64,000 nucleotides of DNA. It comes from a virus. The DNA lies in IMG/VR virus record IMGVR_UViG_3300035695_000001, positions 50,139 through 114,138 of that record; one strand, 5' to 3'. Position numbers and translations under genes: made by a program. Below are positions 31,466-62,971 of the stretch, in pieces (the stretch's first letter is position 1; each line of letters opens with the position of its first letter). The notes under the pieces were generated by a model. The model did no database searches, was not told the DNA's origin, and was given only the letters and a program-made list of their open reading frames with translations.

Positions 31466-31488
31466 AGGCTAGCACGGGCTGTCTAGCA
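31466..31488 (-). promoter_or_regulatory. Tandem GTCTAGCA elements before the structural block
   Basis: On the - strand TGCTAGACAGC (31488-31478) is followed 13 bases later by a degenerate TGCTAGCC (31475-31468), which ends 7 bases before ATG 31457-31459. The distance from T of the second copy to the ATG is 15 bases, the same as at four other genes. Confidence 0.7.
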
Positions 31489-31535
31489 CGGGTGCAGGAA
31501 CGCAACGATGGGCGCCCGTCGGTTGCTCAGACGCC

Positions 31536-31568
31536 ACTGTCTAGCAGCGGCCGGTGGTGCTAGACAGT
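31536..31568. promoter_or_regulatory. Perfect 11-bp inverted repeat in a divergent promoter region
   Basis: ACTGTCTAGCA (31536-31546) and TGCTAGACAGT (31558-31568) face outwards with an 11-base spacer, between the leftward structural block and the rightward gene at 31596. The rightward gene has its own Shine-Dalgarno (GCAGGAGG) before ATG 31596, so its transcript has a leader. Confidence 0.85.
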
Positions 31569-31595
31569 GGGGGCCCGTAGGGGCAGGAGGCACGA

Positions 31596-31841
31596 ATGGC
31601 GAAGGTCACGATCGAGCGCATGGGCGGCGACAGTTACGAGCCTGTCCACATCACGGTGAAGGTCGACGGAGTCGAGGTGGGGAACGGCGGCATCGGCGGG
31701 GAGCCCGAGGACAACTGCGAGGCCCGCGACTACCGCTGGGTCCGCCCCATGATCGAGAAGTTGGCCAAGGCGCTCGGCGCCGAGGTCGAGACGGTGGCGG
31801 TGAACGACGACGAGGACGAGGACGAGGACGAGGATGTCTGA
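31596..31841 (+). CDS. Small acidic protein
   Basis: An 81-residue protein with GCAGGAGG a few bases before its ATG. The first 65 residues form a small alpha/beta unit (MAKVTIERMGGDSYEPVHIT; IEKLAKALGAEVETVAV) and the last 12 are an Asp/Glu run (DDEDEDEDEDV). Highly acidic tails occur in DNA-mimic and scaffold-like proteins, but there is no direct evidence of such a role. It is the first gene of a rightward operon controlled by the inverted repeat at 31536-31568 and overlaps the next gene by 8 bases. Confidence 0.7.
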   Translation: MAKVTIERMGGDSYEPVHITVKVDGVEVGNGGIGGEPEDNCEARDYRWVRPMIEKLAKALGAEVETVAVNDDEDEDEDEDV

Positions 31842-32577
31842 GCGAGTCGGGCGCGTGGCGATGACCGCCGCAGAATTGCGGGGGGCCGTGTTCACGATCG
31901 CGGAAGGGATGGCCGGCCTGAGCGTCGGCCAAGCCACCACGGTGCGAGCGCTGACCCACCGCCTTATCGGCGAGGTCTGGCGACTCAGGGCCAAGATCCG
32001 CTACCAGACCCGGCGCATCTGGGACCTGGAGGAGGGCGCCAAGGAACTGGGGGCTCCCGCGTTCCCGAAGGAGATCCAGCACCTCCGGGAGCAGGTGACC
32101 AGCCTGCAAGCCAAGGGGACCGAACTGCTGGAGCGGGCACGGAGGGCGGAGGATCACTTCGGCGAGGTCGATGCGATCCTCGCCGAAGCCTTCCAGGCTG
32201 GCGGCTGGGCTAGAGGCGCAGCGGTGAGCCTCCCCGGTCTCATCAAGGGGCTGCGCGAGGGGCTGGAGGTCGCGCAGATGGCGAACAGCCAGCCAACGGT
32301 CAGCCCGCCGGATCGAGGCAACACTGATGCGTGGGAGACGCCGTGGCCGTCCATGGAGAAGGCGGTCATCCCGAGGACCACGGACGAGATCCAAGCCTGG
32401 CTCGCCGTCCACGCGATCGAGGAGTACCGTGGCGAGGTGGTCAAGTTCTGTGAGCAGAAGGCGATGTCCGCCCAGAGCGAGGGGCTCTGCCACCCAGACG
32501 TCCTCCGATCGATGTACTGCGATGGCCAGGCTTCGGCCTTCAAGGCGCTCGCCGCCATCCTCCGGGGTGCGAAGTGA
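31834..32577 (+). CDS. Hypothetical coiled-coil protein
   Basis: A 247-residue protein, helical throughout its first 130 residues with a clear coiled coil (IWDLEEGAKELG; 'IQHLREQVTSLQAKGTELLE'). The C-terminal third carries three cysteines in a compact region (VVKFCEQKAMSAQSEGLCH, then MYCDG) that might bind metal. No family is recognised. Similar long coiled-coil proteins are encoded at 32574 and 50797, and the three could be related phage accessory proteins. It ends in a GTGA overlap with the next gene. Confidence 0.65.
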   Translation: MSERVGRVAMTAAELRGAVFTIAEGMAGLSVGQATTVRALTHRLIGEVWRLRAKIRYQTRRIWDLEEGAKELGAPAFPKEIQHLREQVTSLQAKGTELLERARRAEDHFGEVDAILAEAFQAGGWARGAAVSLPGLIKGLREGLEVAQMANSQPTVSPPDRGNTDAWETPWPSMEKAVIPRTTDEIQAWLAVHAIEEYRGEVVKFCEQKAMSAQSEGLCHPDVLRSMYCDGQASAFKALAAILRGAK

Positions 32578-33308
32578 GCGCCGGGAACGTCGGCAAGGTG
32601 GTGACCTACACTTGCTCTTCCAAAGCCGACGGGGGCCAGCGGACCGTGAAGATCCTGGCCTGGGTCAAGGCAGGGGATTCGATGGACGCCACCCGTCAGT
32701 ACCTCCTGGTCCCGAAACGGCAGGATGGTGGCCCTGACTGCGCGGACACCTCGCAGTTCCACCGCTACCTCGTCCAGGAGGATCGCCGGACCCCCGCTGG
32801 CCGGGTCCTCAAGACGAAGTGGTACGCCCCGATCGCCAGCGTCATCGACTCGGCGCTGCGGTCGTCCGTGGGGGCAGCCGTGGAGCCGAAGGTCGCCGAG
32901 ATGCCTCCCGAGCCCAAAACCCGCACGGGCACGGTCGACGTGGAGAAGATCGAGGCCAACGCCACCAGCATCATCCTCTGGCTGAAGAACGCCGCAGCGG
33001 TGGCGCCGGCCATCCCTGGCGGGACGGATGGGTGCCTGCGGACCGCTGGCTTCATCCAGACGCTGCTCTCGACGATCCGGCACCTCAAGGACCGAGAGGA
33101 GAGCATCATCGCCGCCTGCGATAAGGTGGCGGACGGGGGCCAGTACAGGGCCGACATCGTCTCGGCCATCTCCGGCATGCGGAAGGAGCGGGACCAGTTG
33201 CGGCTGGCCCATACGGAGGCGGTGGGTCTGCTCAAGGAACTGCGCGGCGACGTCTCCGACGAGTCGTTCCTGGCCAGGATGGACGCCGTCATCGGGAACG
33301 CACCATGA
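32574..33308 (+). CDS. Hypothetical protein
   Basis: GTG 32574 overlaps the previous stop. The 244 residues start with a beta-rich domain that could be an OB- or SH3-like fold (VVTYTCSSKADGG; TVKILAWVKAGDSM). A helical part follows (VDVEKIEANATSIILWLKNA) that ends in a coiled coil with 'SGMRKERDQLRLAHTEAVGL'. It overlaps the Nudix gene by four bases (ATGA). No known family or catalytic motif is visible. Confidence 0.65.
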   Translation: MSAGNVGKVVTYTCSSKADGGQRTVKILAWVKAGDSMDATRQYLLVPKRQDGGPDCADTSQFHRYLVQEDRRTPAGRVLKTKWYAPIASVIDSALRSSVGAAVEPKVAEMPPEPKTRTGTVDVEKIEANATSIILWLKNAAAVAPAIPGGTDGCLRTAGFIQTLLSTIRHLKDREESIIAACDKVADGGQYRADIVSAISGMRKERDQLRLAHTEAVGLLKELRGDVSDESFLARMDAVIGNAP

Positions 33309-34281: not shown

Positions 34282-34289
34282 CCGATGCC

Positions 34290-36207: not shown

Positions 36208-36217
36208 CCCCAGCGTC

Positions 36218-36266: not shown

Positions 36267-36278
36267 TAGGAGGTTCCC

Positions 36279-38658: not shown

Positions 38659-38973
38659 TCAGCCGCCGATCTCCGTAACCGTGACGTCTTCGATCCACCC
38701 AGGCTGTGGGTTGAACGGAGCGGTGATGCAGACACGCATCGTGGCGAAGTCGATGTGGGCCTCGACGCCCTGGTCAGGCCAGGCGTTGGCCACCTCGACG
38801 GCGAGTCGGCTGGGCGTCAGCGTGTCGGCCTCGGGCTCACGCTCACCAGGCGCAGGGTCTGGCGCGTAGCGCTTGTATTTCGACAGGAAGACGTGAGCCT
38901 CGCCACGCATCCGCTCGAAGTGGCCTTGCGCGGCAAGGGTGTGCATCAGCGCTGCCTGTGCCACGGGCCTCAC
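38659..38973 (-). CDS. Small protein of the terminase operon
   Basis: GTG 38973 overlaps the upstream stop (GTGA). The 104-residue product has a helical N-terminus (VAQAALMHTLAAQGHFERMR) and a mixed second half (ADTLTPSRLAVEVANAWP; 'IDFATMRVCITAPFNPQPGW'). It lies between the gene at 38970 and the large terminase, three bases before the terminase start. A role in packaging or as a structural adaptor is a guess from location. Confidence 0.6.
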   Translation of the reverse strand: MRPVAQAALMHTLAAQGHFERMRGEAHVFLSKYKRYAPDPAPGEREPEADTLTPSRLAVEVANAWPDQGVEAHIDFATMRVCITAPFNPQPGWIEDVTVTEIGG

Positions 38974-39611
38974 GTCGCCTCCTCCGCCTTCGGCGCCTCG
39001 ATGACGATGGCCGGCGCCCACCCGAAGTGGCAGGTCCGCCAGTCGGGCCCGTAGGCTTCCGCGGCGGCCATGGCGTAGCCGTCCAGGTAGTCGCGGCGCT
39101 GGTCCTCGGGAACGTACTCGGGCGCGACCAGGGCCGTGGCGCGGGCAGCGAGCCCACCCGCCGAACCGAAGGGGTTGTGCTCACAGGCGTCGAGCGCGCA
39201 GTTGGTGGCGCCCCAGTTGTACGGCTCGGGGGGAGGGTCCTGCCAGGTGACCTTGGTCTTGCCGCCATGGCCGTGGATGCAGACCACCTCGGCCATGCTG
39301 TCGTAGATGGCGACCGACGAGTGCTTGGTCAGCCAGGACAGTGCGACCCTGCCGTTGGAGAAGCGGATCCCCTCGGCGACCCGGCCGGTACCTGAGACCC
39401 CGCTCTCGTCGTCGGAGCGGTCGAGCCAGAACCGGATCGTGGTGGGGGCGCTCTGGGTGGCGACTTCGAGGAAGCGCTCCGCGGCCTGCTTCTCGCCCGC
39501 GTCCTGGATCTTGAACTCGTAGACGATCTCTCGCGGCCGGATCTGATCGCGCGGGTTGGCTGGCTCGACTGGGGGCGGCGGAATGGTGCTGGGAGGGTGG
39601 GGGGCGTCCAT
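38970..39611 (-). CDS. Phage protein of unknown function, leaderless start
   Basis: A 213-residue protein. After a Pro-rich leader, the middle (about residues 70-120) has the pattern 'GRVAEGIRFSNGRVALSWL' followed by VVCIHGHGGKT, which I recognise as a recurring phage hypothetical in which a His-Gly-His-Gly loop closes a beta domain. A C-terminal Cys/His-containing helical part follows (NCALDACEHNPFG, DGYAMAAAEAYG). The ATG is 16 bases from the T of a TGCTAGACT element with no Shine-Dalgarno, so its mRNA is probably leaderless. It heads the terminase operon. Confidence 0.65.
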   Translation of the reverse strand: MDAPHPPSTIPPPPVEPANPRDQIRPREIVYEFKIQDAGEKQAAERFLEVATQSAPTTIRFWLDRSDDESGVSGTGRVAEGIRFSNGRVALSWLTKHSSVAIYDSMAEVVCIHGHGGKTKVTWQDPPPEPYNWGATNCALDACEHNPFGSAGGLAARATALVAPEYVPEDQRRDYLDGYAMAAAEAYGPDWRTCHFGWAPAIVIEAPKAEEAT

Positions 39612-39616: not shown

Positions 39617-39642
39617 AGAGTCTAGCACCTCGGTGTCTAGCA
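39617..39642 (-). promoter_or_regulatory. Two tandem GTCTAGCA elements
   Basis: On the - strand TGCTAGACA (39642-39634), which contains the stop codon of the capsid paralogue, is followed 15 bases later by TGCTAGACTCT (39627-39617), 16 bases before ATG 39611. Both point toward the terminase operon. Confidence 0.8.
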
Positions 39643-40494
39643 GTCGTGCTTGGGCCAGCCGATGTCGCGGATGACGGCGTGCGCGTTCGGCTGGTCGACC
39701 ACCAGTTGCGTGACCAGCGTGGCAGCGACGCCAGGTACCTCCCCCTTCTCGCCGCGTGAGAACTGGAACCGCACCGGCGACGAGTCGCCCACCCGGAGGT
39801 AGTTCAGGCAGACGTGGTCTGGTTGCAGGAGCACGATGATGCCCCGCGGGAACCGCTCGACGTTGGAGAGGCGCATGCCTACCTGCTGGAGCACCTTGCC
39901 GGCAGCGTCCATCGCGTCGGGGTTGCCCACGGCCAGCGTGGGAGCCGTACCGCTGGCGGTGACGCAGTAGTTGACTGCCCGGGTCGCCAGCGCCGTCGTG
40001 AGGGGCCTCGGCACGCCGCCGTTGGCGAAAACGTTGGCGCTCCAGTGCGGGTAGGTCGATCGGCTGATGTTGGCGTAGACGGCGGTGGCGGCCAGCGCAC
40101 CACCGAGCAGGCCGTAGATGGCCGGGTTGTGGTTCCGGTCGATCCCGTTCCCGACGTGGAGGTCGTCCTCGACGAGACGGGCCAGGGCTCCGAACACCTT
40201 GGTGACCCGCTCACGGAACCGCTCGGCGAGCGCTTCCCGCCCGTAGGTCTCCGCCGCGAGCACGTCCTCCGCCGTGACCTGGAAGGCGGCCCGGTACATG
40301 CCCCACGGGAGGCACGCTTGCCCGGTCGGCCCGGTCACTCCATCGGGGCGTGCCTCCCAGTTGACGTTCTTGCCGTACCCTGGCCGCGCCTCCAAGGCGG
40401 CCATGAGGCTGTTCGGGCCGGCGTGCTTGGCTCCGAACTCGAAGTGGTAGGTGCTGGTGAGGGCTGAGGTGATCCTGGTGGCTGCGTCGTCCAT
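39637..40494 (-). CDS. Second capsid-like protein (major capsid paralogue)
   Basis: A 285-residue homologue of the major capsid protein at 24170-25234, about 15 kb away. Shared blocks in the same order are GKNV-x-W-[DE]-A, a helix ending DDLHVGNGIDRNHNP (capsid DDFYTGTGTDGNGNQ), GLLGGALAATAVYANISRST (capsid GVLGGALELSGSYAGISRST), NGG-x-PRPLT, and a C-terminal QLVVDQPNAHAVIRDI (capsid QLRVEHPNANGYIADI). It is about 70 residues shorter, missing loops. The ATG is 15 bases from a TGCTAGACT element. It could be a minor capsid or vertex protein, a size variant, or a decoy. Confidence 0.85.
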   Translation of the reverse strand: MDDAATRITSALTSTYHFEFGAKHAGPNSLMAALEARPGYGKNVNWEARPDGVTGPTGQACLPWGMYRAAFQVTAEDVLAAETYGREALAERFRERVTKVFGALARLVEDDLHVGNGIDRNHNPAIYGLLGGALAATAVYANISRSTYPHWSANVFANGGVPRPLTTALATRAVNYCVTASGTAPTLAVGNPDAMDAAGKVLQQVGMRLSNVERFPRGIIVLLQPDHVCLNYLRVGDSSPVRFQFSRGEKGEVPGVAATLVTQLVVDQPNAHAVIRDIGWPKHDC

Positions 40495-40498: not shown

Positions 40499-40531
40499 TG
40501 AGTCTAGCAGTACCGACGCCTGCTAGACAGT
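40499..40531. promoter_or_regulatory. Inverted GTCTAGCA elements with 11-base spacer
   Basis: The left arm GTCTAGCA ends at 40509, so its T lies 15 bases before the ATG of the leftward capsid paralogue. The right arm TGCTAGACAGT is at 40521-40531 with the same 11-base spacer as at 31536. No rightward gene is visible beyond the right arm, so that arm may be a pure operator. Confidence 0.8.
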
Positions 40532-44207: not shown

Positions 44208-44491
44208 CGTCGGCCTCCGAGGTCGATGCCGACCGGCTGGATGTCCTCAGCGATCTCTTCGAGGAACTTGAGCGCCGCGTGGAAGGCCGAATCGCCCTCC
44301 TGTCGCCACGATGCGACGCTATCCACGATCTCCCTGGCCAGTGCTTCGTCCGCAACTAGCGCTCGCCGGATAGCGTCCGCCGTGTCCTCGCCATCCCTGG
44401 CCTTCACCAGTCTCCTGACCTCGGCGTGCGCCTGCTCGCAAAGGCACCCCGGTCCGTGCCCTGCCCACTTACCGCTGGTCTTGTCGTCCAT
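44204..44491 (-). CDS. Small hypothetical protein
   Basis: ATG 44491 overlaps the previous stop by one base (TGATG). The 95 residues include a Cys/His-containing start (GKWAGHGPGCLCEQAHAEVR) and an acidic helical remainder (DTADAIRRALVADEALAREI; 'FHAALKFLEEIAEDIQPVG'). It may bind metal at the N-terminus. It is the second gene of the operon starting at 44709. Confidence 0.65.
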   Translation of the reverse strand: MDDKTSGKWAGHGPGCLCEQAHAEVRRLVKARDGEDTADAIRRALVADEALAREIVDSVASWRQEGDSAFHAALKFLEEIAEDIQPVGIDLGGRR

Positions 44492-44709
44492 CACATCCTC
44501 GTCTCCTCTTGCCGTGCCACCGAGGCGTACGGCTCCCCGCTCTTGCCGTTGGTCCAGGTCGACCCGCATCGGCCGCACTTGAACCTGGGACGCCCGTCGG
44601 CCGCAGGCGCCGCCATCCGGATGATGTCGGTGTGCCTGCACGACCCGCAGCACGTCTTGGTCCGGCGCGGTTCCTTGGCGGCTCGGCGTCGCCCCCTGCT
44701 CTTGCCCAT
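44491..44709 (-). CDS. Zinc-ribbon protein, leaderless start
   Basis: ATG 44709 lies exactly 15 bases after the T of TGCTAGACAGT (- strand), with no room for a Shine-Dalgarno. A GTG two codons earlier is inside the element and unlikely. The 72-residue product has a basic start (GKSRGRRRAAKEPRRTKTC) and a zinc ribbon made of CCGSC and FKCGRCGSTW, typical of small transcription- or replication-associated proteins. As the first gene of an eleven-gene operon it could regulate its own transcription. Confidence 0.7.
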   Translation of the reverse strand: MGKSRGRRRAAKEPRRTKTCCGSCRHTDIIRMAAPAADGRPRFKCGRCGSTWTNGKSGEPYASVARQEETRM

Positions 44710-44712: not shown

Positions 44713-44752
44713 CACTGTCTAGCACAAGGTCGTCCGGTTGTGCTAGACAGTG
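44713..44752. promoter_or_regulatory. 13-bp perfect inverted repeat, divergent promoters
   Basis: CACTGTCTAGCAC (44713-44725) and GTGCTAGACAGTG (44740-44752) surround 14 bases. The left arm is 15 bases from the ATG of the leftward operon; the right arm is 80 bases from the rightward ATG 44821, which has GGAG before it. This is the longest exact pairing among the copies. Confidence 0.85.
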
Positions 44753-45196: not shown

Positions 45197-45535
45197 ATGG
45201 CGACCAACATCCCGGCAGGCGCAGAGGTGACGCTCACGATCCGGCTGACCGTGGGCCCATGGACCCCATGCGACGAGGGCTACGAGCGGCGGTGGTCCGG
45301 TCCGGTCGCCAAGGACGGTTCCCAGCCCGCGGCTGCCCGCGTGACGAAGAAGGCGATGCCGTGGCCGTTCAAGCCGCGGTGGGAGTGGAGCGCTGGCGAT
45401 CCCTACAGCGATGAGTGGATCGAGGAAGGCGAGACGAAGGGTGCCGGTCCTGATGACGCGATGGCTGTGGCCGACGCCGCCCTCAAGCAGATCGTGGCCG
45501 ACATCGAAGGCGAGCCGCCCACGGCGCCTGTCTAG
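45197..45535 (+). CDS. Hypothetical protein ending inside a GTCTAGCA element
   Basis: Starts one base after the previous stop. The 112-residue product is beta-rich at first (GAEVTLTIRLTVGPWTPCDE) with Trp-rich strands ('AMPWPFKPRWEWSAGD') and a helical end (DAMAVADAALKQIVADIEG). Its last codons, GTC TAG, lie within CCTGTCTAGCA, so the element sets the C-terminal valine and stop. Function unknown; co-transcribed with the gene at 44821. Confidence 0.7.
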   Translation: MATNIPAGAEVTLTIRLTVGPWTPCDEGYERRWSGPVAKDGSQPAAARVTKKAMPWPFKPRWEWSAGDPYSDEWIEEGETKGAGPDDAMAVADAALKQIVADIEGEPPTAPV

Positions 45536-45583
45536 CACCCGCCAGCACTGTCTAGCACTGGCCCCCCAGGTCTGCTAGACAGT
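45527..45583. promoter_or_regulatory. Cluster of three GTCTAGCA elements
   Basis: CCTGTCTAGCA (45527-45537), ACTGTCTAGCA (45547-45557) and TGCTAGACAGT (45573-45583). The last two form an inverted repeat with a 15-base spacer. The third ends six bases before ATG 45590 (17 bases from its T). It is the densest cluster and lies upstream of a possible DNA-binding gene. Confidence 0.85.
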
Positions 45584-45589: not shown

Positions 45590-46000
45590 ATGCCCACCCC
45601 AAAGAAGCCAGCCAAGCAGCCACGATCCTCCGAGCCGACCGAGACGGTGGAGCCCTCGTCCAGGGCCCCCGTCGAGCGGAAGAGCCCCATGCTGGCCACC
45701 ACGGTCTCCAAGGAGGTCTACAACGCCGTCCAGGAGGCCATGGAGGAGCACGGGCTCAAGCGGTCCGTCGTAGTCGACAACGGGCTCCGGATCGGCCTCG
45801 GGCTCGGGGCAGGGCCGGAGGGGTGGAAGATCCCCATGCCCCCAGGCTTCAAGGCGCTGGCCGCCAAGAACGGAGCCCACAAGACCATGGCAGCCGTCGA
45901 GGCTGTAGCCGAGGTTCTCCCCGAGCGGATCGTGGAGCGGGACGGCGAGGGAGCCCCCGAGGAGCAGAGCCAGGTCCCGCGCAGGGGAAAGAAGCGATGA
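45590..46000 (+). CDS. Ribbon-helix-helix-like DNA-binding protein, candidate regulator
   Basis: A 136-residue protein. After a Lys/Pro-rich arm, residues about 33-68 (SPMLATTVSKEVYNAVQEAM, then HGLKRSVVVDNGLRIGL) follow the ribbon-helix-helix pattern of CopG/Arc-type regulators: a short strand, a helix and a second helix. The C-terminal half is helical and ends basic (QVPRRGKKR). The ATG lies 17 bases after the T of a GTCTAGCA element with no Shine-Dalgarno. Three element copies directly upstream make autoregulation likely, and it is my first candidate for the protein that binds the element. Confidence 0.6.
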   Translation: MPTPKKPAKQPRSSEPTETVEPSSRAPVERKSPMLATTVSKEVYNAVQEAMEEHGLKRSVVVDNGLRIGLGLGAGPEGWKIPMPPGFKALAAKNGAHKTMAAVEAVAEVLPERIVERDGEGAPEEQSQVPRRGKKR

Positions 46001-46745: not shown

Positions 46746-47077
46746 GAGAGCGCGTTCACGAACGGGTCGCTATCCGTGGACCAAACGGTCACGAGGTTCG
46801 AGATCGATCGTTCCGCCTTTTCGTGGACGACCAGCGCCCGCTCGCAGACCTCTGCCTCGTGGCGCTGTCTCGGGTCAGGAGAGGCATGTGTTTCGGCTGG
46901 GAAGCGTGCGCAGCGCTCGACGTTCGCACGCCGACCATGGAGCGGGTCATCGCCTTCCTCCTCGGCGCTCGACTGATCCATCGGGTCCGCAGGTTCAAGG
47001 CCGACGGTGAATGTGGACCAGACGGCCGTCATGTCGTCACGCGAGAGCTGCTCTACATCGCCGCAGGGGACCGATGA
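46742..47077 (+). CDS. Winged-helix-like small protein
   Basis: GTG 46742 overlaps the previous TGA; frames upstream are shadows. In the 111-residue product the middle ([20 protein letters not shown], then '[20 protein letters not shown]') looks like a winged-helix domain, with a strand-turn-strand after it ([18 protein letters not shown]). It ends in ATGA overlap with the LexA-like gene, so the two DNA-binding proteins are made together and may act in the same switch. Confidence 0.55.
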
Positions 47078-47472
47078 CTGGGCTCACCGACAGGCAGGCT
47101 GAGATCCTGGCCTTCATCCGGGCCCGCTACCGGGAGAAGGGGTACGCGCCGACCATCCGTGAGATCGGCGCCCACTTCGGGATCCGCTCGACCAACGGCG
47201 TCAACTGTCACGTCAACAGGCTGGTCGCGAAGGGGGCGCTGCGGAAAGAGGACATGAAGTCCCGCTGCCTGGTCCCCGTCGAGCGGGAGGAAGCACCCGT
47301 ACGGGCGCCGGCTCAATGCGAGGACGGGCAGGGAGACATCGTCGCCGTCGACGTGGTGGAGTTCGTGCGCGGTACGGGTCTGGTCGGGAACGTACGAGAG
47401 ACCCTGCGGTTCGACGCGAAGTTGCTGGTGGACACCGCCAGGCTGCCGAGTCTCTGGGCCAGGCGGCCGTAG
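47074..47472 (+). CDS. LexA N-terminal-domain protein without the peptidase domain
   Basis: A 132-residue protein. Residues 3-70 match the LexA DNA-binding domain: '[20 protein letters not shown]', '[19 protein letters not shown]', '[14 protein letters not shown]'. E. coli LexA has about 200 residues with a Ser/Lys self-cleaving domain; here the remaining 60 residues have no Ser-Lys peptidase signature. A repressor of this kind would not respond to RecA by cleavage. It is the last gene of the operon that begins with the RHH-like regulator and is a second candidate for binding the dispersed element. Confidence 0.8.
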
Positions 47473-48036: not shown

Positions 48037-49914
48037 TCAGATAGGCGAGTGGGCGGGCTTCGGCAGGGCAGCGGCGAGCACTTCGAGGACCCGGTTGCGG
48101 GCGCGCTGGTAGCCCAGGCTCTCACCAGCGATCTGCCCCTTGTCGACGTTGTCGCTGCCTCTGGCAGCCTTGAGGCGCTGGACCTCGGTGTCGAAGTCAT
48201 TGGCCAGGCTCTTGAGGACCCGCTCCCACTCGGTGTCTCTGGTGTCGGCGGCGTCCTTGACGCAGGTGTTGACCGTCTTGAGCCACTCCTGGGTGCGCTC
48301 AGATCGCTCCTGCATCAGCCAGCGCGGCTCGTGTCCGGGCTTTGGCCCATCTTCGAGCATGGCCCCGCGCGCTCGCGCCGAGACCTCGATGCCCCTGATC
48401 TTGTCGATGAGCCAGCCGTCCTCGTCCTGCACGTCCTCCGGTGGCCGCGAGCCCACGATCACGAGCAACGCCGAGCGGAGGTCGTGCAGCCGCTTGAAGA
48501 TGGTCGACGACACCACGTCCCGACGCTTGATGCCGTTGACCAGGCCGGTGGCGCCTTCCCCGCCGAGCAGGTCGAGCGCCTCCCGCATGTCGGACAGCAG
48601 CCGGATGGCGACGTCCACCGCGCTCTCCCCGTTCTGAGGGTAGACCTCGCGGAAGATGCCGAGGCGCTTGCCGAACGGAGCAGGATCGGGCTTCTCCAGC
48701 GCGTCCTTGATCGCGTGGAGCATCCGCTCGTCCGGGTCCGAGGCCCAGCCGGTGCCGTCGTAGCCGACCATCTTGGCCAGGCCGAGCACCCCCTTGCGCA
48801 GGTGGTCGAGCGGGCCGTCCACGTTCCCGTCGGGGAGTTTGAGCCGCCGGATGTTGCCGGGCAGCACCTCGCGGTGGTGGTCCCCGCTGTACTCCTCCAC
48901 GCGCTGCGCCGCCTGCTCCCGCATGACCTCGGCTCCAGCGAGGTAGGAGACCTTGGCCCGATCGACCGCGTCGGCGATCGTCGTCATCCCGTCGACCGGC
49001 CCGAGCGGGACGGGGAAGCGCTCACGCTCCGGGCAGCCCTTGAAGTGGCGCGACGGGTCATCTGCCTGAATCTTGAGGCACGAGCAGCCCCCCTTGTCGC
49101 CTCGCAGTGTTTTGGCCAGGCCGAGGAGTGCGTTCAGGTTCGCGATCGTGTGGTGCAGCCCAGGCGGCTGCGCCCGCATCTTCTCCAGCATGTCGGAGAG
49201 CGCGACCACCAACGCAGTCACGCCGCCTGCGCGAGACGGTTTTTCAGCGTCGATGGTCGACGGGTTGGCCTTCCCCCGCGACGCCTTCTCACGAACGCTG
49301 GCCCTGTGCTCCTCCGAGGTCTCGGCCGGCGGGTCGACGAGCGGCCAGGTGGCGACCTCCTCGGCGCTCCTGTAGGTCGTGCTCATCCCAGCCGTCACCT
49401 TCACGCTGCCAGATGGCGCGATGCCGAGCACTTCGCTCGGAGCGCCGAACGGCCCGCGCCGGATCTGGCCCACCAGGACGTGCATCCCTGCCGGCGGGTC
49501 GACGGTGTAGGCCGGTGGCATCGTCCCGGCCAGGTTGGTGAGGATGACCTGGCCCACCATGTCGCCACTGAGATCCTCGGCGTTGACCACGGCCCTTCCA
49601 GGCTCGCCCCCACCACGGGCGAGGTAGATGGGCACGCGCCGGTAGAGCATGACCGGAAGGTCTCCCTCGTCGGAGCGGTAGGCGCGCAGGGCAGGCGTCT
49701 CCGTGGTCCAGATCGACATCGGGCGCCAGGACTGTGGGGCCTCACACTCCACCGCCCGCCACACGTCGGCGGAGAGGTAGACGCTGGTGGCCTTCTGCCC
49801 GGTCTCGATCTCCAGGGCCTGGAAGCAGTCGTCGAGGAGTTGGGGGGTGAGCGGCGGCGTGGCCGCGTTGCTCGTCGGGTCGTGGACGAGGTGCTCGAAG
49901 CGGATCGTCTTCAT
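48037..49914 (-). CDS. Large hypothetical protein
   Basis: ATG 49914 (MKTIRFEHLVHDPTSN) is favoured: AAGGA lies upstream, and the frame above it passes into the control region. The 625-residue product has a small N-terminal domain ('VYLSADVWRAVECEAPQSW', 'VMLYRRVPIYLARGGGEPGR') that looks like a compact alpha/beta unit. Helical regions follow, with a Cys/His cluster (GGCSCLKIQADD..HFKGC) near residue 285. The last 170 residues hold a helical domain ('EWERVLKSLANDFDTEVQRL'). No family is recognised. It is alone in its operon. Confidence 0.6.
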   Translation of the reverse strand: MKTIRFEHLVHDPTSNAATPPLTPQLLDDCFQALEIETGQKATSVYLSADVWRAVECEAPQSWRPMSIWTTETPALRAYRSDEGDLPVMLYRRVPIYLARGGGEPGRAVVNAEDLSGDMVGQVILTNLAGTMPPAYTVDPPAGMHVLVGQIRRGPFGAPSEVLGIAPSGSVKVTAGMSTTYRSAEEVATWPLVDPPAETSEEHRASVREKASRGKANPSTIDAEKPSRAGGVTALVVALSDMLEKMRAQPPGLHHTIANLNALLGLAKTLRGDKGGCSCLKIQADDPSRHFKGCPERERFPVPLGPVDGMTTIADAVDRAKVSYLAGAEVMREQAAQRVEEYSGDHHREVLPGNIRRLKLPDGNVDGPLDHLRKGVLGLAKMVGYDGTGWASDPDERMLHAIKDALEKPDPAPFGKRLGIFREVYPQNGESAVDVAIRLLSDMREALDLLGGEGATGLVNGIKRRDVVSSTIFKRLHDLRSALLVIVGSRPPEDVQDEDGWLIDKIRGIEVSARARGAMLEDGPKPGHEPRWLMQERSERTQEWLKTVNTCVKDAADTRDTEWERVLKSLANDFDTEVQRLKAARGSDNVDKGQIAGESLGYQRARNRVLEVLAAALPKPAHSPI

Positions 49915-49975
49915 GGGTGGGCATCCTTGGGGCCCGAGCCAGGCCGTCCTCCCTTCAGACGTCCAGGCGCTGGCC

Positions 49976-50012
49976 ACTGTCTAGCAGTTCTGAGCCCACT
50001 GTGCTAGACAGT
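49976..50012. promoter_or_regulatory. Perfect 11-bp inverted repeat between divergent genes
   Basis: ACTGTCTAGCA (49976-49986) and TGCTAGACAGT (50002-50012) with a 15-base spacer, between the leftward gene starting at 49914 and the rightward gene at 50031. The rightward ATG has GGAGG before it and lies 29 bases from the right arm, so this transcript has a leader. Confidence 0.85.
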
Positions 50013-50800: not shown

Positions 50801-52059
50801 GCGCGCCCATCCTGCAACCTGGCGACCGTCGCAGGCATCCGGTCACCCACCTGACCGCGCGTATCCTCGGTCCTGGTAGCCGCCCCGGCGCGCTTGCCGT
50901 GGCCTACCCGGACTACGAGACCGAGGTCGACGACGCCGTGCTCGCGTCGTGGTGGCGCGTGGACGAGACTGGCAAGATCGTGCTCTGCGAGCGTTGCTCG
51001 ATCCCGATGCGGTCCGATGCGTGCGATGTCTGCCGTCCCGCCGAGTCCGTACCGCAAGAGCCGCCGAGCCCGGAGGAAATGGCGAAGCAACTTCACCGCG
51101 CCTGGAAGCTCGTTGGGCTCGGCCCGTGCGGCGGCGCCGTCCGTGGAATCGAAGCCGAGCGTGCCCGCCGCGATGCCGAGGTATCGGATGACCTGCTTCG
51201 GCGCCTCCTCCGCCGGGCCATCGGCAAGATCCTCGCCGGTCGTGCCGAGGTGGCGGAACTGCGCGAGGAGGTCGAGCGCCTCCGCTCCTCCAAGAGGACC
51301 GAGAACGCCCTGGCCATGCACGAGGCAACCTGGAGGAAGGTGCTGGGCCAGTGGCTGCTCGGGGAGACCAACATCCGCCCCGGGTACCTCGCCGACAAGG
51401 TCCGGGAGACGCTGGCCTCTGAGCCCATGTACCAGGCCGAGACCGATCCCGACGTCGAGCACCTGCGCCAGACGCTTGGCGCGACGTCCAAAGAGACGCC
51501 GCTGGACGCCGCCAGACGGGTGACCCGCGGCCTTGGCCTGGCGGTCGACGAAGTGGCGCGGCTTCGGAGCCAGGTCACGGACCTTGAGGGCTACCGCGAT
51601 CGAGTCGACGAGGCCGAGAAGCGGGTCAGGATGATCGCGTTCCAGGTGACCTGCATGAGCGTCCGGATGGCCGAGATGATGGAGCACGTCCTGCTGGCAG
51701 ACGTGCTCATCGCGGAGGCTGTCGCTGGCATGAAGGAGCGCTGCGCCAAGGTGGTGGAGACGTTGCACGGCGGGTGCGCATCCAGGGACAAGGTCGCCGC
51801 CGCCATCCGAGCGCTGTCAGACACCAGCAAGTCCGCCAAACGCGGCGAGGGGCTGCCGGTAGCGCTGGAACGTGTACGGGAAGCCGCCAAGGTGGTCGTC
51901 GGCGCCTTCAAGCTCAACGTCACCTCGCGGAAGGGAGACGCCGAACTGCGGGCCGCAGCGCTGGCCACCCTGACCCCTGAAGAGACGGCAGAGGCCGAGG
52001 CAGCGGCGCACCGCGAATGGGTCGCGTCGTCGCCCAGTACCGGCAAGCCCACTGTCTAG
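50797..52059 (+). CDS. Coiled-coil protein with zinc-ribbon N-terminus
   Basis: GTG 50797 overlaps the previous stop, which excludes the long upstream extension of this frame. The 420-residue product carries a probable zinc ribbon near residues 66-85 (LCERCSIPMRSDACDVCRP). Long charged coiled coils follow ('EVAELREEVERLRSSKRTEN'; 'EVARLRSQVTDLEGYRDRV') separated by a helical domain. Its last codons, GTC TAG, are inside ACTGTCTAGCA. The coiled-coil architecture resembles the proteins at 31834 and 32574. Function unknown. Confidence 0.6.
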   Translation: MSAPILQPGDRRRHPVTHLTARILGPGSRPGALAVAYPDYETEVDDAVLASWWRVDETGKIVLCERCSIPMRSDACDVCRPAESVPQEPPSPEEMAKQLHRAWKLVGLGPCGGAVRGIEAERARRDAEVSDDLLRRLLRRAIGKILAGRAEVAELREEVERLRSSKRTENALAMHEATWRKVLGQWLLGETNIRPGYLADKVRETLASEPMYQAETDPDVEHLRQTLGATSKETPLDAARRVTRGLGLAVDEVARLRSQVTDLEGYRDRVDEAEKRVRMIAFQVTCMSVRMAEMMEHVLLADVLIAEAVAGMKERCAKVVETLHGGCASRDKVAAAIRALSDTSKSAKRGEGLPVALERVREAAKVVVGAFKLNVTSRKGDAELRAAALATLTPEETAEAEAAAHREWVASSPSTGKPTV

Positions 52060-52061
52060 CA
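52051..52061 (+). promoter_or_regulatory. GTCTAGCA element at a gene junction
   Basis: ACTGTCTAGCA contains the stop codon of the upstream gene (TAG 52057-52059) and ends one base before ATG 52063. Its orientation is opposite to the promoter-like copies, so here it looks more like an operator or a roadblock to transcription. Confidence 0.8.
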
Positions 52062-52062: not shown

Positions 52063-52299
52063 ATGAGGGGCCTATCCTTGGACGAGGCGCAGATCCTCGT
52101 CGACATCTCCGACCCGGTCGCGGCCCACTACCGCAGCGGCGGTCTCACCTGGGCCGAGGTCTACCGCCGACGTCCCATCCTCCACAAACTCACGTTGGAG
52201 GGCAGGGCGGCACCCAACGATCGCGGAGGCTGGCAGATCACTGCGCTCGGCAGGCTCGCCTTGCGCGTGTCGCTATCGCTCCCGCGACCGACTGTCTAG
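52063..52299 (+). CDS. Small winged-helix-like protein flanked by two elements
   Basis: A 78-residue protein bounded by GTCTAGCA elements on both sides: one ends a base before its ATG and one contains its stop (GTC TAG). There is no Shine-Dalgarno between the upstream element and the ATG. The sequence (EAQILVDISDPVAAHYRSGG; 'TWAEVYRRRPILHKLTLEGR'; GGWQITALGRLAL) reads as helices followed by a wing, so DNA binding is plausible. It is the third candidate regulator for the element. Confidence 0.6.
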   Translation: MRGLSLDEAQILVDISDPVAAHYRSGGLTWAEVYRRRPILHKLTLEGRAAPNDRGGWQITALGRLALRVSLSLPRPTV

Positions 52300-52301
52300 C
52301 A
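52291..52301 (+). promoter_or_regulatory. GTCTAGCA element containing a stop codon
   Basis: ACTGTCTAGCA carries the TAG (52297-52299) of the small gene at 52063. It is followed by a hairpin at 52320-52354 in the convergent interval. Confidence 0.8.
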
Positions 52302-52415: not shown

Positions 52416-52449
52416 GATGTCTAGCAGGACCCGCGGGCACTGTCTAGCA
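52416..52449. promoter_or_regulatory. Two GTCTAGCA elements after a leftward operon
   Basis: GATGTCTAGCA (52416-52426) and ACTGTCTAGCA (52439-52449) are direct repeats 23 bases apart. The second contains the stop codon (TGC TAG on the - strand) of the gene at 52444-53034. No leftward gene follows, so a promoter role is unlikely here. Confidence 0.8.
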
Positions 52450-53856: not shown

Positions 53857-53893
53857 ACTGTCTAGCACAGTGGGCTCGGAACTGCTAGACAGT
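53857..53893. promoter_or_regulatory. Perfect 11-bp inverted repeat between divergent genes
   Basis: ACTGTCTAGCA (53857-53867) and TGCTAGACAGT (53883-53893) with a 15-base spacer. The right arm is followed by GTTG and ATG 53898, giving exactly 15 bases from T to ATG. The leftward gene is 90 bases away and has a Shine-Dalgarno. Confidence 0.85.
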
Positions 53894-55601: not shown

Positions 55602-55635
55602 TGCTAGACAGTTCCTCCGACCAGTGCTAGACAGT
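55602..55635 (+). promoter_or_regulatory. Two tandem promoter-oriented elements
   Basis: TGCTAGACAGT at 55602-55612 and again at 55625-55635, 23 bases apart, both pointing to the gene at 55678. The second is 53 bases from the ATG, and CGGAGGACC before the ATG shows a leadered mRNA. The 23-base spacing recurs at 52416/52439. Confidence 0.85.
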
Positions 55636-55677: not shown

Positions 55678-56052
55678 ATGGCGAGGAAGGACTTGCTCAC
55701 CGTGGGCACTGTCAGACAGCAGTGCGCGCTCGAAGATGCCCACCAGCCCGTCGTGGTTGTCGTGGTCAGCCCGCTCGGAGCCGAGACGTTCTATGCTGGG
55801 CGGCGCGCCTACCCAGACACGTCGATGGCTCCGGCTGGTAGCGGGCTCTACGTGGTCGCCAACGAGACCGACAAGATCGGTGCCCACCGCGAGCGGCCCA
55901 TGCACTTCGACCTGCGCGGGCGGCTCCTTTGCTCACCCAAAGAAGGTGGTGGTGGACGGCTCGTCATGATCACCAGCGACCCCGCAGAGTTCGCCGCAAG
56001 CGACAACCGCTGCCCCGACTGCACTCTCGCCAAGTTGGCGATGCCTGTCTAG
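55678..56052 (+). CDS. Hypothetical protein ending inside an element
   Basis: ATG 55678 has CGGAGG before it. The 124-residue product is beta-rich (TVRQQCALEDAHQPVVVVVV; 'GLYVVANETDKIGAHRER'; 'HFDLRGRLLCSPKEGGG') with a C-terminal Cys pair (NRCPDCTLAKLAMPV) that could form half of a zinc site with the earlier cysteines. The last codons, GTC TAG, are within CCTGTCTAGCA. Alone in its operon; convergent with the small terminase gene. Confidence 0.65.
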   Translation: MARKDLLTVGTVRQQCALEDAHQPVVVVVVSPLGAETFYAGRRAYPDTSMAPAGSGLYVVANETDKIGAHRERPMHFDLRGRLLCSPKEGGGGRLVMITSDPAEFAASDNRCPDCTLAKLAMPV

Positions 56053-56089
56053 CAGTGCCTAGCCCCCGCCGCTCCCCTTGCTAGACAGC
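56044..56089. promoter_or_regulatory. Elements in a convergent gene junction
   Basis: CCTGTCTAGCA (56044-56054) holds the stop codon of the rightward gene. TGCTAGACAGC (56079-56089) lies inside the last codons of the leftward small terminase gene, and a degenerate TGCCTAGCC between them (56056-56064) holds that gene's stop. No gene starts here, so a promoter role is unlikely. Confidence 0.7.
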
Positions 56090-56751
56090 AGGGCGGCCAC
56101 CTTCTGCCTCGCTGCCTCCCGCTTCTCTGGCGGGACCTCTTCGATCAGCGCCCCCAGCACCGCGGCCAGCCCTGGCACCGCGTCCAGGCTCAGCGTCCCA
56201 TCCCCAGCCCCGCCCACCGGGGTCCTGGCGGTCTGCCCCCAGTATGCTGGGAAGCGCCGGGCCATAAGGCGCTCCATCAGCGCCGAGTTGCCGTTCTTGG
56301 CCATCTGAGCGAGCGCGATCGTTGAGGCTGACTCCAGCACCGCCTCCGCCGTCCCCAAGCACTTGACCAGCGCCTTGAACAGTGGGCGCCCGTCTGGGTC
56401 GTTGCCCTCCTTCAGCCAGGCGTTCACGGTCTGTGGCGGGTAGCCGTAGACCCGGAAGGCGGCGAGGGGCCGGACGAACTGGCGGGCCTGCGCGCAGATC
56501 ATCGGGACGTGCTCGACCTTGAGGGACAGGGGCTGGCCGCGACGGGTGGCCCTGGAGCCGGTGCCGCGGTAGCGGGCCATCTCAGCGTCGAACTCGGCCT
56601 GGAAGATGGCGAACTCCTTCGCGCAGTTCTTGTGGAACCAGTCCAGGTCGGAGAGGGCGGCATCTGGGTCGAGGTCGATGGCGTCCTTGTAGGCGCGACG
56701 CCCGGCCACTGTCGTTGGTTGCCCTGCTGTAGGGCCTGGTTTTCGTGCCAT
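56059..56751 (-). CDS. Terminase small subunit candidate
   Basis: A 230-residue protein. The middle follows the small-terminase pattern: a helix-turn-helix with 'FRVYGYPPQTVNAWLKEG' near 100-118, then 'PLFKALVKCLGTAEAVLESA', and 'MAKNGNSALMERLMARRFPA' near 149-168, resembling the 'G....w.lER..P..W' segment of TerS proteins. It would recognise phage DNA for packaging. It lies 17.4 kb from the large subunit on the other side of the accessory region, which is unusual. The C-terminus is helical with a Gly-rich end. Confidence 0.7.
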   Translation of the reverse strand: MARKPGPTAGQPTTVAGRRAYKDAIDLDPDAALSDLDWFHKNCAKEFAIFQAEFDAEMARYRGTGSRATRRGQPLSLKVEHVPMICAQARQFVRPLAAFRVYGYPPQTVNAWLKEGNDPDGRPLFKALVKCLGTAEAVLESASTIALAQMAKNGNSALMERLMARRFPAYWGQTARTPVGGAGDGTLSLDAVPGLAAVLGALIEEVPPEKREAARQKVAALLSSKGSGGG

Positions 56752-56775: not shown

Positions 56776-56786
56776 TGCTAGACAGT
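56776..56786. promoter_or_regulatory. GTCTAGCA element upstream of the small terminase
   Basis: TGCTAGACAGT on the + strand, between the end of the gene at 56791 and the small terminase start at 56751. Relative to the leftward genes it is in the reverse orientation to the promoter-like copies, so an operator role fits better. Confidence 0.75.
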
Positions 56787-59364: not shown

Positions 59365-59660
59365 GCCCGACCTCCATTCCGAACACGGACGACGGCGTCC
59401 GCGGCTTTGGCGTGGGCAGCCTGGGCGTCCCGCTCGGCCTCCAGTGCCTTCTGGTACTTCATCCTGCCGCCGTAGCGCTCGAACCAGTAGAGCGCCGTCG
59501 TACAGGGAGGGGGAGGCGTCCAGCGCCAGACGTCCCGGCGGGCCTGGTCCAGACGCTCCCCCGCAAAACGCTCGTCGCTCAGGACCCGGTCGAGCGCTTC
59601 GCCGTAAGCGATGGCCGCCATGAGCCCAACGGGCAGCGGGGTCGTGCCCACCAGCATCAT
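59361..59660 (-). CDS. Small hypothetical protein
   Basis: ATG 59660 overlaps the previous stop (ATGA); a second ATG follows immediately. The 99-residue product starts hydrophobic (MMLVGTTPLPVGLMAAIAYG), continues with a charged helical part ('RVLSDERFAGERLDQARRDV'), and carries PPPP and a Cys-containing loop before a final coiled-coil helix (YQKALEAERDAQAAHAKAAD). Unknown function. Confidence 0.6.
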   Translation of the reverse strand: MMLVGTTPLPVGLMAAIAYGEALDRVLSDERFAGERLDQARRDVWRWTPPPPCTTALYWFERYGGRMKYQKALEAERDAQAAHAKAADAVVRVRNGGRA

Positions 59661-60025
59661 CGTGCTCCTACCTTCCTGGCCTGCTTGCGCTCGCGCCTGG
59701 TGAGCCTTCGCTTGCCCTTCCACTCCGGGAGGGGCTTGATCCGGGGACCTGTCCCGAGGGCATCACGGACAGCCTTGGGAGCGGGAGCGTCGAGGGTGTT
59801 GGGGGGCAGCCTGCGAGACTTGGGCTTGCGCTGGCTGAACGGGGAGGGGCCAAGGCTCACCGTCGCCACGATGCCAGACAGCGCCGCTAGCAGCCCCATC
59901 GTCTTCCTTGCCTCGGCATCACGGTCGAGGCGTCGCTCCACGGAGCGGACGGCGTCCTCGACCTCGCCGACGGAGATGCCGTTGATGGCGGCGATGCGCT
60001 GGAGGGCCTCGGAGCGAGCGTCCAT
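59657..60025 (-). CDS. Small membrane-associated basic protein, leaderless start
   Basis: ATG 60025 is 15 bases after the T of TGCTAGACT on the - strand, without a Shine-Dalgarno. The 122-residue product has a charged N-terminal helix (AINGISVGEVEDAVRSVERR), one hydrophobic segment (MGLLAALSGIVATVSLG) near residues 43-60, and a strongly basic C-terminus (WKGKRRLTRRERKQARKVGA). It heads the chain of ten or more coupled genes that runs down to 56791. Possible anchor or RNA-binding protein. Confidence 0.6.
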   Translation of the reverse strand: MDARSEALQRIAAINGISVGEVEDAVRSVERRLDRDAEARKTMGLLAALSGIVATVSLGPSPFSQRKPKSRRLPPNTLDAPAPKAVRDALGTGPRIKPLPEWKGKRRLTRRERKQARKVGAR

Positions 60026-60029
60026 GGGC

Positions 60030-60062
60030 AGAGTCTAGCACAGTGGGCGGGTGCTAGACAGC
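60030..60062. promoter_or_regulatory. Inverted GTCTAGCA elements with 11-base spacer
   Basis: AGAGTCTAGCA (60030-60040) and TGCTAGACAGC (60052-60062). The left arm drives the leftward gene at 60025 (15 bases). The right arm points into the end of the leftward ParB-like gene, so it is probably an operator arm. Confidence 0.85.
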
Positions 60063-60076
60063 GGCGAGCAGGAGCG

Positions 60077-61156: not shown

Positions 61157-61165
61157 GCGTGAAGG

Positions 61166-61798
61166 CTACCCGTCAACGTCAGCACTGGCCAGATGCAGCC
61201 ATGCCTTCCCGTTCACGATCTGATGGCACCGCGCCTGACAGACGCCGAACGCCTCGGCGAGCACCCTGTACGTGTCGCCAGCGGCTCGTCGCCGTCGGAT
61301 CTCGATGACCTGCTCGTCGGTCAATTTGACGTTGGGCGACCCCTCGCCTTGGTTCACGTACCCCCTACAACGGCCACGCCGCATCATGTCCGCAGTGTTG
61401 TCCGCCGCCGTGCCGAGTTTCAGGTGGGCCGGATTGACGCACGGCGGGTTGTCGCAGTGATGCAGTACCCACAGGTCCACCGGGATCGAGCCAACGAACA
61501 GTTCCCACGAAACGCAGTGGGTACCGTTCGTCTCCCCGTCGATGTCGATCTTCCCGTACCCGACGTCCTTTGAACGCCCGCGAGTCCATTGCCAGCACGG
61601 ACCAAGTTCGGGGACGATGATTGGACCATCAAAGCAGATGCCGTCGAAGAAACGGTCGAGCCACGAGCCGACCGTGCCCTTGTATGAGGCGGCCCACGAA
61701 GCCTTCGCGCACTCGTCAGAGCAGCACCTGCGCCCCTTGGTCTCCAGCGTCCTTTGGAAGTCCTTGCCGCAGTTCTTGCACTTCCGTACGCTGAGCAT
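61166..61798 (-). CDS. HNH homing endonuclease with zinc finger and HTH
   Basis: ATG 61798 has AAGGGTGG before it; a GTG nine codons earlier is the alternative. The 210-residue protein has an N-terminal zinc finger (CKNCGKDF, CCSDECAK), a central HNH core (VGYGKIDIDGETNGTHCVSW, 'LHHCDNPPCVNPAHLKLGT', DNTADMMRRGR) of the HNH_3 type and a C-terminal HTH (VKLTDEQVIEIRRRRAAG, then 'AEAFGVCQARCHQIVNGKAW'). It is a stand-alone homing nuclease inserted between the two genes of a ParB/PAPS pair. Confidence 0.85.
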   Translation of the reverse strand: MLSVRKCKNCGKDFQRTLETKGRRCCSDECAKASWAASYKGTVGSWLDRFFDGICFDGPIIVPELGPCWQWTRGRSKDVGYGKIDIDGETNGTHCVSWELFVGSIPVDLWVLHHCDNPPCVNPAHLKLGTAADNTADMMRRGRCRGYVNQGEGSPNVKLTDEQVIEIRRRRAAGDTYRVLAEAFGVCQARCHQIVNGKAWLHLASADVDG

Positions 61799-61867
61799 GT
61801 TCGACCACCCTTCTGGTTGAGCCACCTGCCCGGGGCGCGCTAACGCCCGCGGGTAGGCCCTACACTA

Positions 61868-62569
61868 TCACGGTGCAGCGCTTGGAAGGCTGTAGAACCG
61901 ACGCCGCCAGACCGTGGCCCAGATGAAAGGGAAGTCCTCGGCGAGCAGCGCGAAGTCAGCCGGGTGACGACGGTGCAGCCACTCCAGCGACGGCGCGGTG
62001 AGGTCGATCCCGGTCGCGCTGTGCCCGCTGGAGTCGGGGATGGGGATCCCGTTGGCGGCCAGGAACTGGATGACGTCCACCTTCAACCACGACGCGATCG
62101 GATGGTAAATCTCGGCATACTGGACCGCCTTGAGTGTCCGGCGACGCCAAAGCGAATCGGCAGCCTTGGCCCCGGTCAGGATGACCTGGATGCCGGTACT
62201 CTCGATGGACCAGTCGTAGACGTCCCGCACCGTCAGGTCAGGGATCGCTGCGATGGCTTCAGGCGAGAGCGGTGGCCGGTACAGGTTGGCCTTGAGCATG
62301 CGAGCGAGGATCCAATGCGGAAGTTGGACGATCTCCATCCCGTGCCGGCGGCGCCCATCGTCGAGCGCCTCCTCCACACACGCGAGGCCCTTCTTCAGGT
62401 ACATGAAGACCCCGACCACCTGGTCGAACTTGCGGTGCGCGAGTGCGCAGATCGTACGACTCTCCTTGCCTCCGCTGTAGAAGCACAGCGCCCGCTTGGA
62501 GCCAGTCCTGGCCACGGCATCTGCCGCGGCTCTGTCGAGGATTTCTGTGGTCTGTTCGAGCTTGCCCAA
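61868..62569 (-). CDS. PAPS-reductase-like (IbrA-type) protein
   Basis: A 233-residue adenine-nucleotide alpha-hydrolase fold protein. The PP-loop is FYSGGKESRT at residues 30-39 (SGGKES instead of SGGKDS). The family end is also present: 'YHPIASWLKVDVIQFLAANG' near 158-177, then HSATGIDLTAPSLEWLHRRH. The start is TTG 62569, 18 bases from a TGCTAGACT element, with no Shine-Dalgarno. Family members activate a substrate by adenylation or reduce sulphate; phage versions paired with ParB-like proteins have unknown targets, possibly DNA modification or host takeover. Confidence 0.8.
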   Translation of the reverse strand: MGKLEQTTEILDRAAADAVARTGSKRALCFYSGGKESRTICALAHRKFDQVVGVFMYLKKGLACVEEALDDGRRRHGMEIVQLPHWILARMLKANLYRPPLSPEAIAAIPDLTVRDVYDWSIESTGIQVILTGAKAADSLWRRRTLKAVQYAEIYHPIASWLKVDVIQFLAANGIPIPDSSGHSATGIDLTAPSLEWLHRRHPADFALLAEDFPFIWATVWRRRFYSLPSAAP

Positions 62570-62576
62570 TGTGGGC

Positions 62577-62587
62577 GGAGTCTAGCA
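62577..62587 (-). promoter_or_regulatory. GTCTAGCA element before the PAPS-reductase-like gene
   Basis: On the - strand TGCTAGACTCC starts 18 bases before TTG 62569. Same TAGACT variant as at 39617, 40499 and 60030, all upstream of likely leaderless genes. Confidence 0.75.
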
Positions 62588-62614
62588 CCCAGGCGTTGCA
62601 CCTGGGGCGTGAGG

Positions 62615-62845
62615 TCAGCCGGCGCCGCCGTGGTTGGAGTTGTTCCCGGTGCCGGGCCCGACGTTGCCCTTGTTGCGGTTGTTCTGCCGCTTCTTGGCCC
62701 CGGGGGTCCCGGGCTTGGGGGCGCCCTTGATGCCCAGTGGGGTCTTCGGGGTCGCCGTCCCCTTCACCGGGATGGCCCCGGGAGCCCGGAACCCGCCGGG
62801 GTTCGCCTTGCCCTTGGGCATGATCACCGCTTTCTTCGCCGCCAT
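62615..62845 (-). CDS. Small basic low-complexity protein
   Basis: A 76-residue protein with AAGGAG before ATG 62845. It is made of Lys, Gly, Pro, Ala and Asn (MAAKKAVIMPKGKANPGGFR; 'KGTATPKTPLGIKGAPKPG'; KKRQNNRNKGNVGPG), highly basic and probably disordered. Such proteins bind nucleic acids or are packaged with DNA. The strong Shine-Dalgarno suggests abundant production. No family is named. Confidence 0.65.
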   Translation of the reverse strand: MAAKKAVIMPKGKANPGGFRAPGAIPVKGTATPKTPLGIKGAPKPGTPGAKKRQNNRNKGNVGPGTGNNSNHGGAG

Positions 62846-62960
62846 GGTCTTTCTCCTTAGAGATCCGCCGACACAGGGCCGGCTCTTGGATGAGAGCCAA
62901 GAGTACGGCCTCGTCGAGCGGGATGGTAGGGGTGTCGAGGGGGTGGGTGCTGGTTTCTGC

Positions 62961-62971
62961 GGTGTCTAGCA
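62961..62971. promoter_or_regulatory. GTCTAGCA element containing a stop codon
   Basis: GGTGTCTAGCA; on the - strand TGC TAG ends the GIY-YIG endonuclease gene (stop at 62966-62968). Rightmost copy in the window. Confidence 0.75.

Follow-up and report, generated by a model that had tools for sequence, protein, structure and literature searches.

A short dispersed element, read as the consensus TGCTAGACAGT with a conserved core of 8–11 bp, recurs ahead of genes in a 64,000-nt stretch of viral DNA (hereafter the window; bases 50,139–114,138 of the 162,811-bp virus record IMGVR_UViG_3300035695_000001). Judged from the sequence, its copies are best read as sites, spread over the whole genome, for a single sequence-specific DNA-binding protein. 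We think it fairly likely that a phage-encoded, autoregulated DNA-binding protein uses the element as its operator and represses operon heads, this protein being most probably the ribbon-helix-helix (RHH)-like product of window positions 45590–46000. The record holds matches to portal, sheath, baseplate and capsid proteins and is therefore taken to be that of a myophage. Genes were called with our own codon-usage caller, and the intergenic and gene-start counts given here rest on these calls.

A preliminary description of this DNA had listed 29 copies of the 8-mer GTCTAGCA, 17 of them extended to the full 11-mer ACTGTCTAGCA, all between 31.4 and 63.0 kb, and our recount returned the same figures (18 copies on the plus and 11 on the minus strand, within 31,481–62,971). 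That this exceeds chance, as had been supposed, is clear from Markov-shuffled windows, which held 0–3 copies of GTCTAGCA (mean ∼0.7), and from 2,520 permutations of the same eight letters, which average 1.1 per window and among which GTCTAGCA ranks first. The element had also been thought limited to half of the window. This proved too narrow, as the whole record carries 49 copies in 29 clusters (at 6.9–49.5 and 81.6–139.9 kb of the record), spread over all non-structural parts. Its reported absence from the structural block does hold, with zero copies of GTCTAGCA at 1–31.4 kb of the window, because the block is one long leftward operon with a copy, at 31,481, just 5′ of it.

Within the copies, TGCTAGAC is present in 49/49 by definition, followed by A in 45, G in 33 and T in 35; where the flanking base is C, the element takes the quasi-palindromic form CTGCTAGACAG. 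The 8-bp core hardly varies, its single-mismatch neighbours occurring at background level. A few degenerate copies had been described, but only one or two single-mismatch copies look real (record 36,576, TGTTAGAC; window 40,681, TGCTAGGC), the rest being at chance. The strings GTCTAGCA and ACTGTCTAGCA had no match in the phage literature among the matches listed. When the paired motif was sought in IMG/VR, five contigs matched; these were set aside as probable chance hits, their whole-contig 8-mer counts being near chance.

The sites lie mainly outside coding DNA, as the preliminary description had it: 41 of 49 are intergenic, compared with 12% of the record's DNA (p ∼1e-30). They had been assigned to the starts or ends of genes, and it is the starts that predominate, 38/49 copies lying in the 110 nt that precede a called start, zones that make up 17% of the genome (p ∼4e-20), whereas ends are a minor location with some copies at 3′ ends. 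Of the 11 divergent junctions that span 40 bp or more, nine carry a copy, and copies occur in both orientations ahead of gene starts. Many copies stand alone, without a partner. The 13 inverted pairs are all head-out, spaced at 18–19 (six), 22–24 (six) or 32 bp (one), and direct pairs are spaced at 23 (four), 20 (one) or 15 bp (one); there are no head-in pairs among the record copies. A pair thus comprises two distinct sites, roughly two helical turns from each other, and not both arms of a single short palindrome.

The only close relative that we found, G006 (IMGVR_UViG_3300010396_000002, 155,559 bp), came from a tail-sheath search; its sheath, terminase and portal are 56, 65 and 53% identical to those of the window's phage. 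Further relatives were sought in viral and genome collections through portal, sheath, terminase and the sigma-like protein P0001 described below, and again only G006 appeared at high identity. G006 has zero copies of TGCTAGAC. An unbiased search for enriched k-mers in its intergenic DNA placed TGTGTGACA first and TGTATGACA next, and a weight matrix, with a clean gap in the scores, separated 25 sites of the form TGTRTGACA, of which 17 are intergenic and none lies in structural genes. These sites sit at gene starts and their flanks give the quasi-palindrome CTGT-RTG-ACAG (TGTRTGACAG), so that the check for the same or a shifted motif in relatives, proposed in the preliminary description, speaks for the site set, as do those on coding DNA and the structural block; TGTGTGACAGT is the relative's version of the element. 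The window's phage has no copy of the relative's motif. Aligned in register, the consensus sequences of the two phages agree at 8 of 11 positions (P ∼0.006), TG-nnn-GACAG being kept and the centre changed. Site spacings in G006 are mainly 22–23 and 32–33, in all orientations, and among its many separate extended −10 promoters are two with an operator exactly 22 bp upstream. No comparable motif was found in a distant sheath relative, G008 (68 kb). An RNA hairpin or terminator was considered for the element, since inverted pairs could fold, and was rejected: direct pairs are common, no U-run follows in the contexts examined and G006 has pairs in every orientation.

In six sites the 9-mer formed by TGCTAGAC and a following A or T is succeeded, 6–8 nt further on, by a sense ATG that opens a reading frame of at least 50 codons (∼0.8 expected; record positions 95,711; 104,021; 110,171; 94,855; 90,640; 89,758), and no such ATG is found at 0–5 or 9–19 nt, nor at 6–8 nt on the opposite side. 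In four further sites GGACGAC lies 7–8 nt past the 9-mer (∼0.03 expected). In the relative, GGACGAC or ATGGACGAC also trails separate extended −10 elements (TGnTAnnnT), and we therefore take it as a mark of the transcript start, in which case several transcripts would be leaderless. By this ATG/GGACGAC register, the sense copy often coincides with the −10. As a separate observation, at many genes of both G006 and the window's record the transcript starts and start codons share GGACGAC/ATGGACGAC (N-terminus MDD) past TGnTAnnnT even where the element is lacking.

The element could then be the promoter itself, a conserved extended −10 class that directs host RNA polymerase to leaderless or short-leader mRNAs. 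Inverted pairs would in that case be divergent promoters and direct pairs tandem ones, and no operator protein would be needed. The exact −10 register of 10/49 sense copies to ATG or GGACGAC, the fit of TGCTAGACT to TGnTAnnnT and the copies at 9/11 divergent junctions are all consistent with this. However, the last hexamer base is A in 45/49 copies and the expected T in only 4/49, and three non-selective positions (GAC) are invariant where other −10s of both phages vary (TGGTAGCCT, TGGTACCTT). The full class, TGnTAnnnT with a start 6–8 nt downstream, is not seen at every copy, the register being confined to those ten, nor is it seen in the relative, whose TGTGTGACA does not read as a −10 and lies 22 bp ahead of distinct −10s. 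Moreover, three promoters have a canonical extended −10 of their own and the copy beside it: at record 28,071 a copy lies 50 upstream, at record 30,077 antisense copies lie 19 and 42 upstream, and at record 81,608 (window 31,470), ahead of the structural operon, a copy lies 14 upstream. These three cases indicate an element added to promoters, and we regard its identity with the promoter as rather unlikely.

A phage activator would explain the same arrangement differently, the weak −10 (TAGACA) firing only with a protein on the upstream partner copy and so defining a class of middle genes. TAGACA does lack the important last T, partner copies, 19 or 23 bp away, fall in the −35 region, and the copies showed no consistent TTGACA −35 beside them. 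Yet the downstream copy lies over the −10/start region, which is unusual for an activator site, TAGACT promoters have the same pairs and partnerless copies are common, all of which makes such an activator improbable. Promoters for a phage RNA polymerase were set aside, no such polymerase having turned up among the larger proteins scanned. Neither record gave an integrase or resolvase profile match, PF00589 (tyrosine recombinase) included, although that profile was positive in 14 controls; a PF00940 search had no match in the phage but none in any control genome either, and carries no weight. The lack of integrase and resolvase matches, together with that of an RNA polymerase among the proteins scanned, favours a lytic regulator acting on the host polymerase.

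As to the protein that would bind the operator, only one with DNA-binding character has counterparts behind triple clusters in both phages, namely the RHH-like product of window 45590–46000 and that of G006 48230–50008. The triple cluster lies directly ahead of the gene in each (48172–48235 in G006), and in each the sense copy ends 6–8 nt before the start ATG. A 49-residue core common to the two proteins is modelled as an extended segment-helix-helix (pLDDT 75), and its fold matches in the PDB, weak ones with E of at least 0.57, are nearly all RHH proteins (CopG–DNA complexes, VapB, MazE, Arc, NikR, CdbA). Another candidate, P0001 (record 143103–144185, L005:11603–12685; 360 aa), has a C-terminal sigma-70 region 4 and an operon preceded by a direct pair. 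It was rejected as binder because, although it stands behind a tandem site, it is without region 2 and G006 has no counterpart of it; no relatives of P0001 were found in phage or viral collections. Host SOS (LexA) boxes were likewise dismissed, the CTGT-N3-ACAG spacing being unlike that of known LexA sites and the phage's LexA-type protein having no counterpart that we could find in G006.

Dimers of the RHH-like protein would bind single sites and, cooperatively, site pairs 18–24 or 32 bp apart. Such sites would front most non-structural operons, many operators being merged with the extended −10 (TGnTAnnnT) of promoters for host RNA polymerase. Once bound, the protein would mask the −10, with the −35 region covered by an inverted copy upstream, so that operon heads would be repressed, the protein's own promoter included; occlusion at 29 operator clusters would limit or time the non-structural genes. 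Several points weigh against this scheme. The RHH-like protein has no match among Pfam or NCBIfam profiles, its full-length model is poor and a LexA-type helix-turn-helix (HTH) protein (47074–47472) is encoded in the same operon. Orthologous genes touch sites in both phages at only two places (rotation P 0.02), in a comparison that covers two phages. In addition, copies over −10 elements could also be read as promoters in their own right. The protein might, with lower probability, activate instead of repress.

A broader picture, which we advance tentatively, is of a virulent large phage in which most non-structural genes may form one regulon of a single autoregulated RHH protein, with operators fused to the extended −10. 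Protein and operator would have co-drifted between relatives (CTA to TRT at the centre), the regulator and 29 clusters being rewritten together. Were the operator reading true, a single virus-made regulator would control most of the non-structural genes. Very little is known of how large environmental phages that lack model relatives regulate their genes, and here sequence alone yields a whole putative regulon, a promoter type (extended −10, leaderless starts) and a candidate regulator. The natural phage pair, with 49 and 25 sites of different element versions, offers a clean system for the joint change of a global regulator and its sites.

Table 1. Copies of the element and associated features, in window coordinates (pair spacings in bp).
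Feature	Position	Strand	Remarks
Operator copy TGCTAGACAGC	31478..31488	-	14 bp upstream of extended −10 TGCTAGCCT; heads leftward structural operon
Putative extended −10 promoter TGCTAGCCT-tctgcc-ATG	31457..31474	-	Ahead of structural block; ATG 6 nt downstream at 31459
Inverted pair, spacing 19	31536..31568	.	Divergent junction (gene 31596-31841, +)
Direct pair, spacing 15	39617..39642	-	TGCTAGACT, 7 nt, ATG of 38970-39611 (-)
Inverted pair, spacing 19	40499..40531	.	TGCTAGACT, 6 nt, ATG of 39637-40494 (-)
Inverted pair, spacing 24	44714..44751	.	Divergent junction; TGCTAGACA, 6 nt, ATG of 44491-44709 (-)
Triple cluster, spacings 20 and 23	45527..45583	.	Directly upstream of RHH-like gene; TGCTAGACA of last copy ends 8 nt before ATG
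RHH-like protein, 136 aa	45590..46000	+	Candidate binder and autoregulator; counterpart G006 48230-50008
LexA-type winged-helix protein, 132 aa, without peptidase domain	47074..47472	+	In operon of RHH-like gene; rival candidate binder
Inverted pair, spacing 23	49976..50012	.	Divergent junction
Single copy	52051..52061	-	3′ end of 50899-52059 (+)
Single copy	52291..52301	-	
Direct pair, spacing 23	52416..52449	-	
Inverted pair, spacing 23	53857..53893	.	Divergent junction; TGCTAGACA, 6 nt, ATG 53898 (+)
Direct pair, spacing 23	55602..55635	+	Upstream of 55678-56052 (+)
Inverted pair, spacing 32	56044..56089	.	Over 3′ end of 56059-56709 (-; TerS-like by reading)
Single copy	56776..56786	+	Upstream of 56059-56709 (-), antisense to that gene
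Inverted pair, spacing 19	60030..60062	.	TGCTAGACT, 6 nt, ATG of 59657-60025 (-)
Single copy (TGCTAGACT)	62577..62587	-	Upstream of 61868-62515 (-)
Single copy	62961..62971	-	Upstream of 62615-62845 (-)

Some of the genes next to these sites deserve comment. The 60-aa N-terminal extension that would begin at ATG 31459 is without homology support, and the relative's homologue of the TerS-like gene (56059–56709) has six copies of the relative's element at its 3′ end. The leaderless TGCTAGACT start at 39637–40494 (minus strand) belongs to a second capsid-like gene, outside the structural block and behind an operator pair, whose product is akin to the major capsid protein and 30% identical to the relative's capsid orthologue (E 2e-11). 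Two genes at 61166–61798 and 62966–63922 of the window are, by reading, HNH-type and GIY-YIG-type endonuclease-like and probably encode homing endonucleases, and a TnpB/OrfB-IS605-type gene with a Cas12f1-like TNB domain lies within the phage genome at record 19800–20957 (L002:300–1457). Cysteine-rich, secreted-looking proteins are encoded at window 47474–47977 and record 136497–137003, a style that we take to be associated with Myxococcota and that may hint at the host. A CTGCTCCCTGATAACCTGC-like repeat occurs on opposite strands at record 148083 and 148193, 110 bp apart in a gene-poor stretch.

Described RHH repressors of the CopG/Arc/MetJ type mostly control one or a few promoters. They resemble the proposed system in their short quasi-symmetric sites, cooperative tandem binding and autoregulation, and in the predicted fold of the candidate; the 29 clusters over one phage genome set the present case apart.

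The preliminary description had likened the element to the stoperators of cluster A mycobacteriophages (L5, Bxb1), which serve a monomeric immunity repressor (PMC9283540, PMC6550527). The likeness stands insofar as the copies are best read as dispersed sites for a single DNA-binding protein: on this reading both systems have at least 20 near-identical short intergenic sites for one phage protein (here 49 copies, 41 intergenic), a motif that shifts among relatives and a site ahead of the gene for the repressor, here a putative one. It fails in that most copies here are paired, lie at promoters and are oriented independently of transcription. L5 stoperators are single asymmetric 13-mers aligned with transcription (PMC9283540, PMC6550527), whereas the present core is 8–11 bp and occurs in recurrently spaced pairs, in both orientations and on promoters; the L5-type repressor is a two-HTH monomer, whereas here the binder is likely an RHH dimer and no integrase was found. 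Elongation blocks of the stoperator kind would account for short asymmetric sites dispersed between genes in similar copy number and for some copies at gene 3′ ends. L5 sites are, however, inactive when reversed, and here the 13 inverted pairs face in both directions, the majority of copies precede operon heads and an integrase was found in neither record, so that such blocks are very unlikely.

Two other systems come close. In cluster K phages the 13-bp SAS, GGGATAGGAGCCC, adjoins the start codon and is accompanied by ESAS with arms of 17 bp (PMC3203893). Like the present element, these are inverted repeats of variable spacer just upstream of many starts, with a consensus that differs slightly among related phages; unlike them, the arm here is 8–11 bp (TGCTAGACAGT) and overlaps the −10, direct pairs occur and no GGGATAGGAGCCC is evident in the sequence contexts of the copies. 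The SPBRE of SPbeta, a 15-bp motif at about ten sites in a prophage, is bound by MrpR, a repressor with a tyrosine-recombinase fold (PMC10516654). It too is a repeated element in the intergenic promoter regions of a large phage under one master repressor, but a tyrosine-recombinase-like protein (PF00589) was not found in either record here. In conclusion, the element works like the operator sets of cluster A, cluster K and SPbeta, but departs from each in its defining orientation, sequence or protein.

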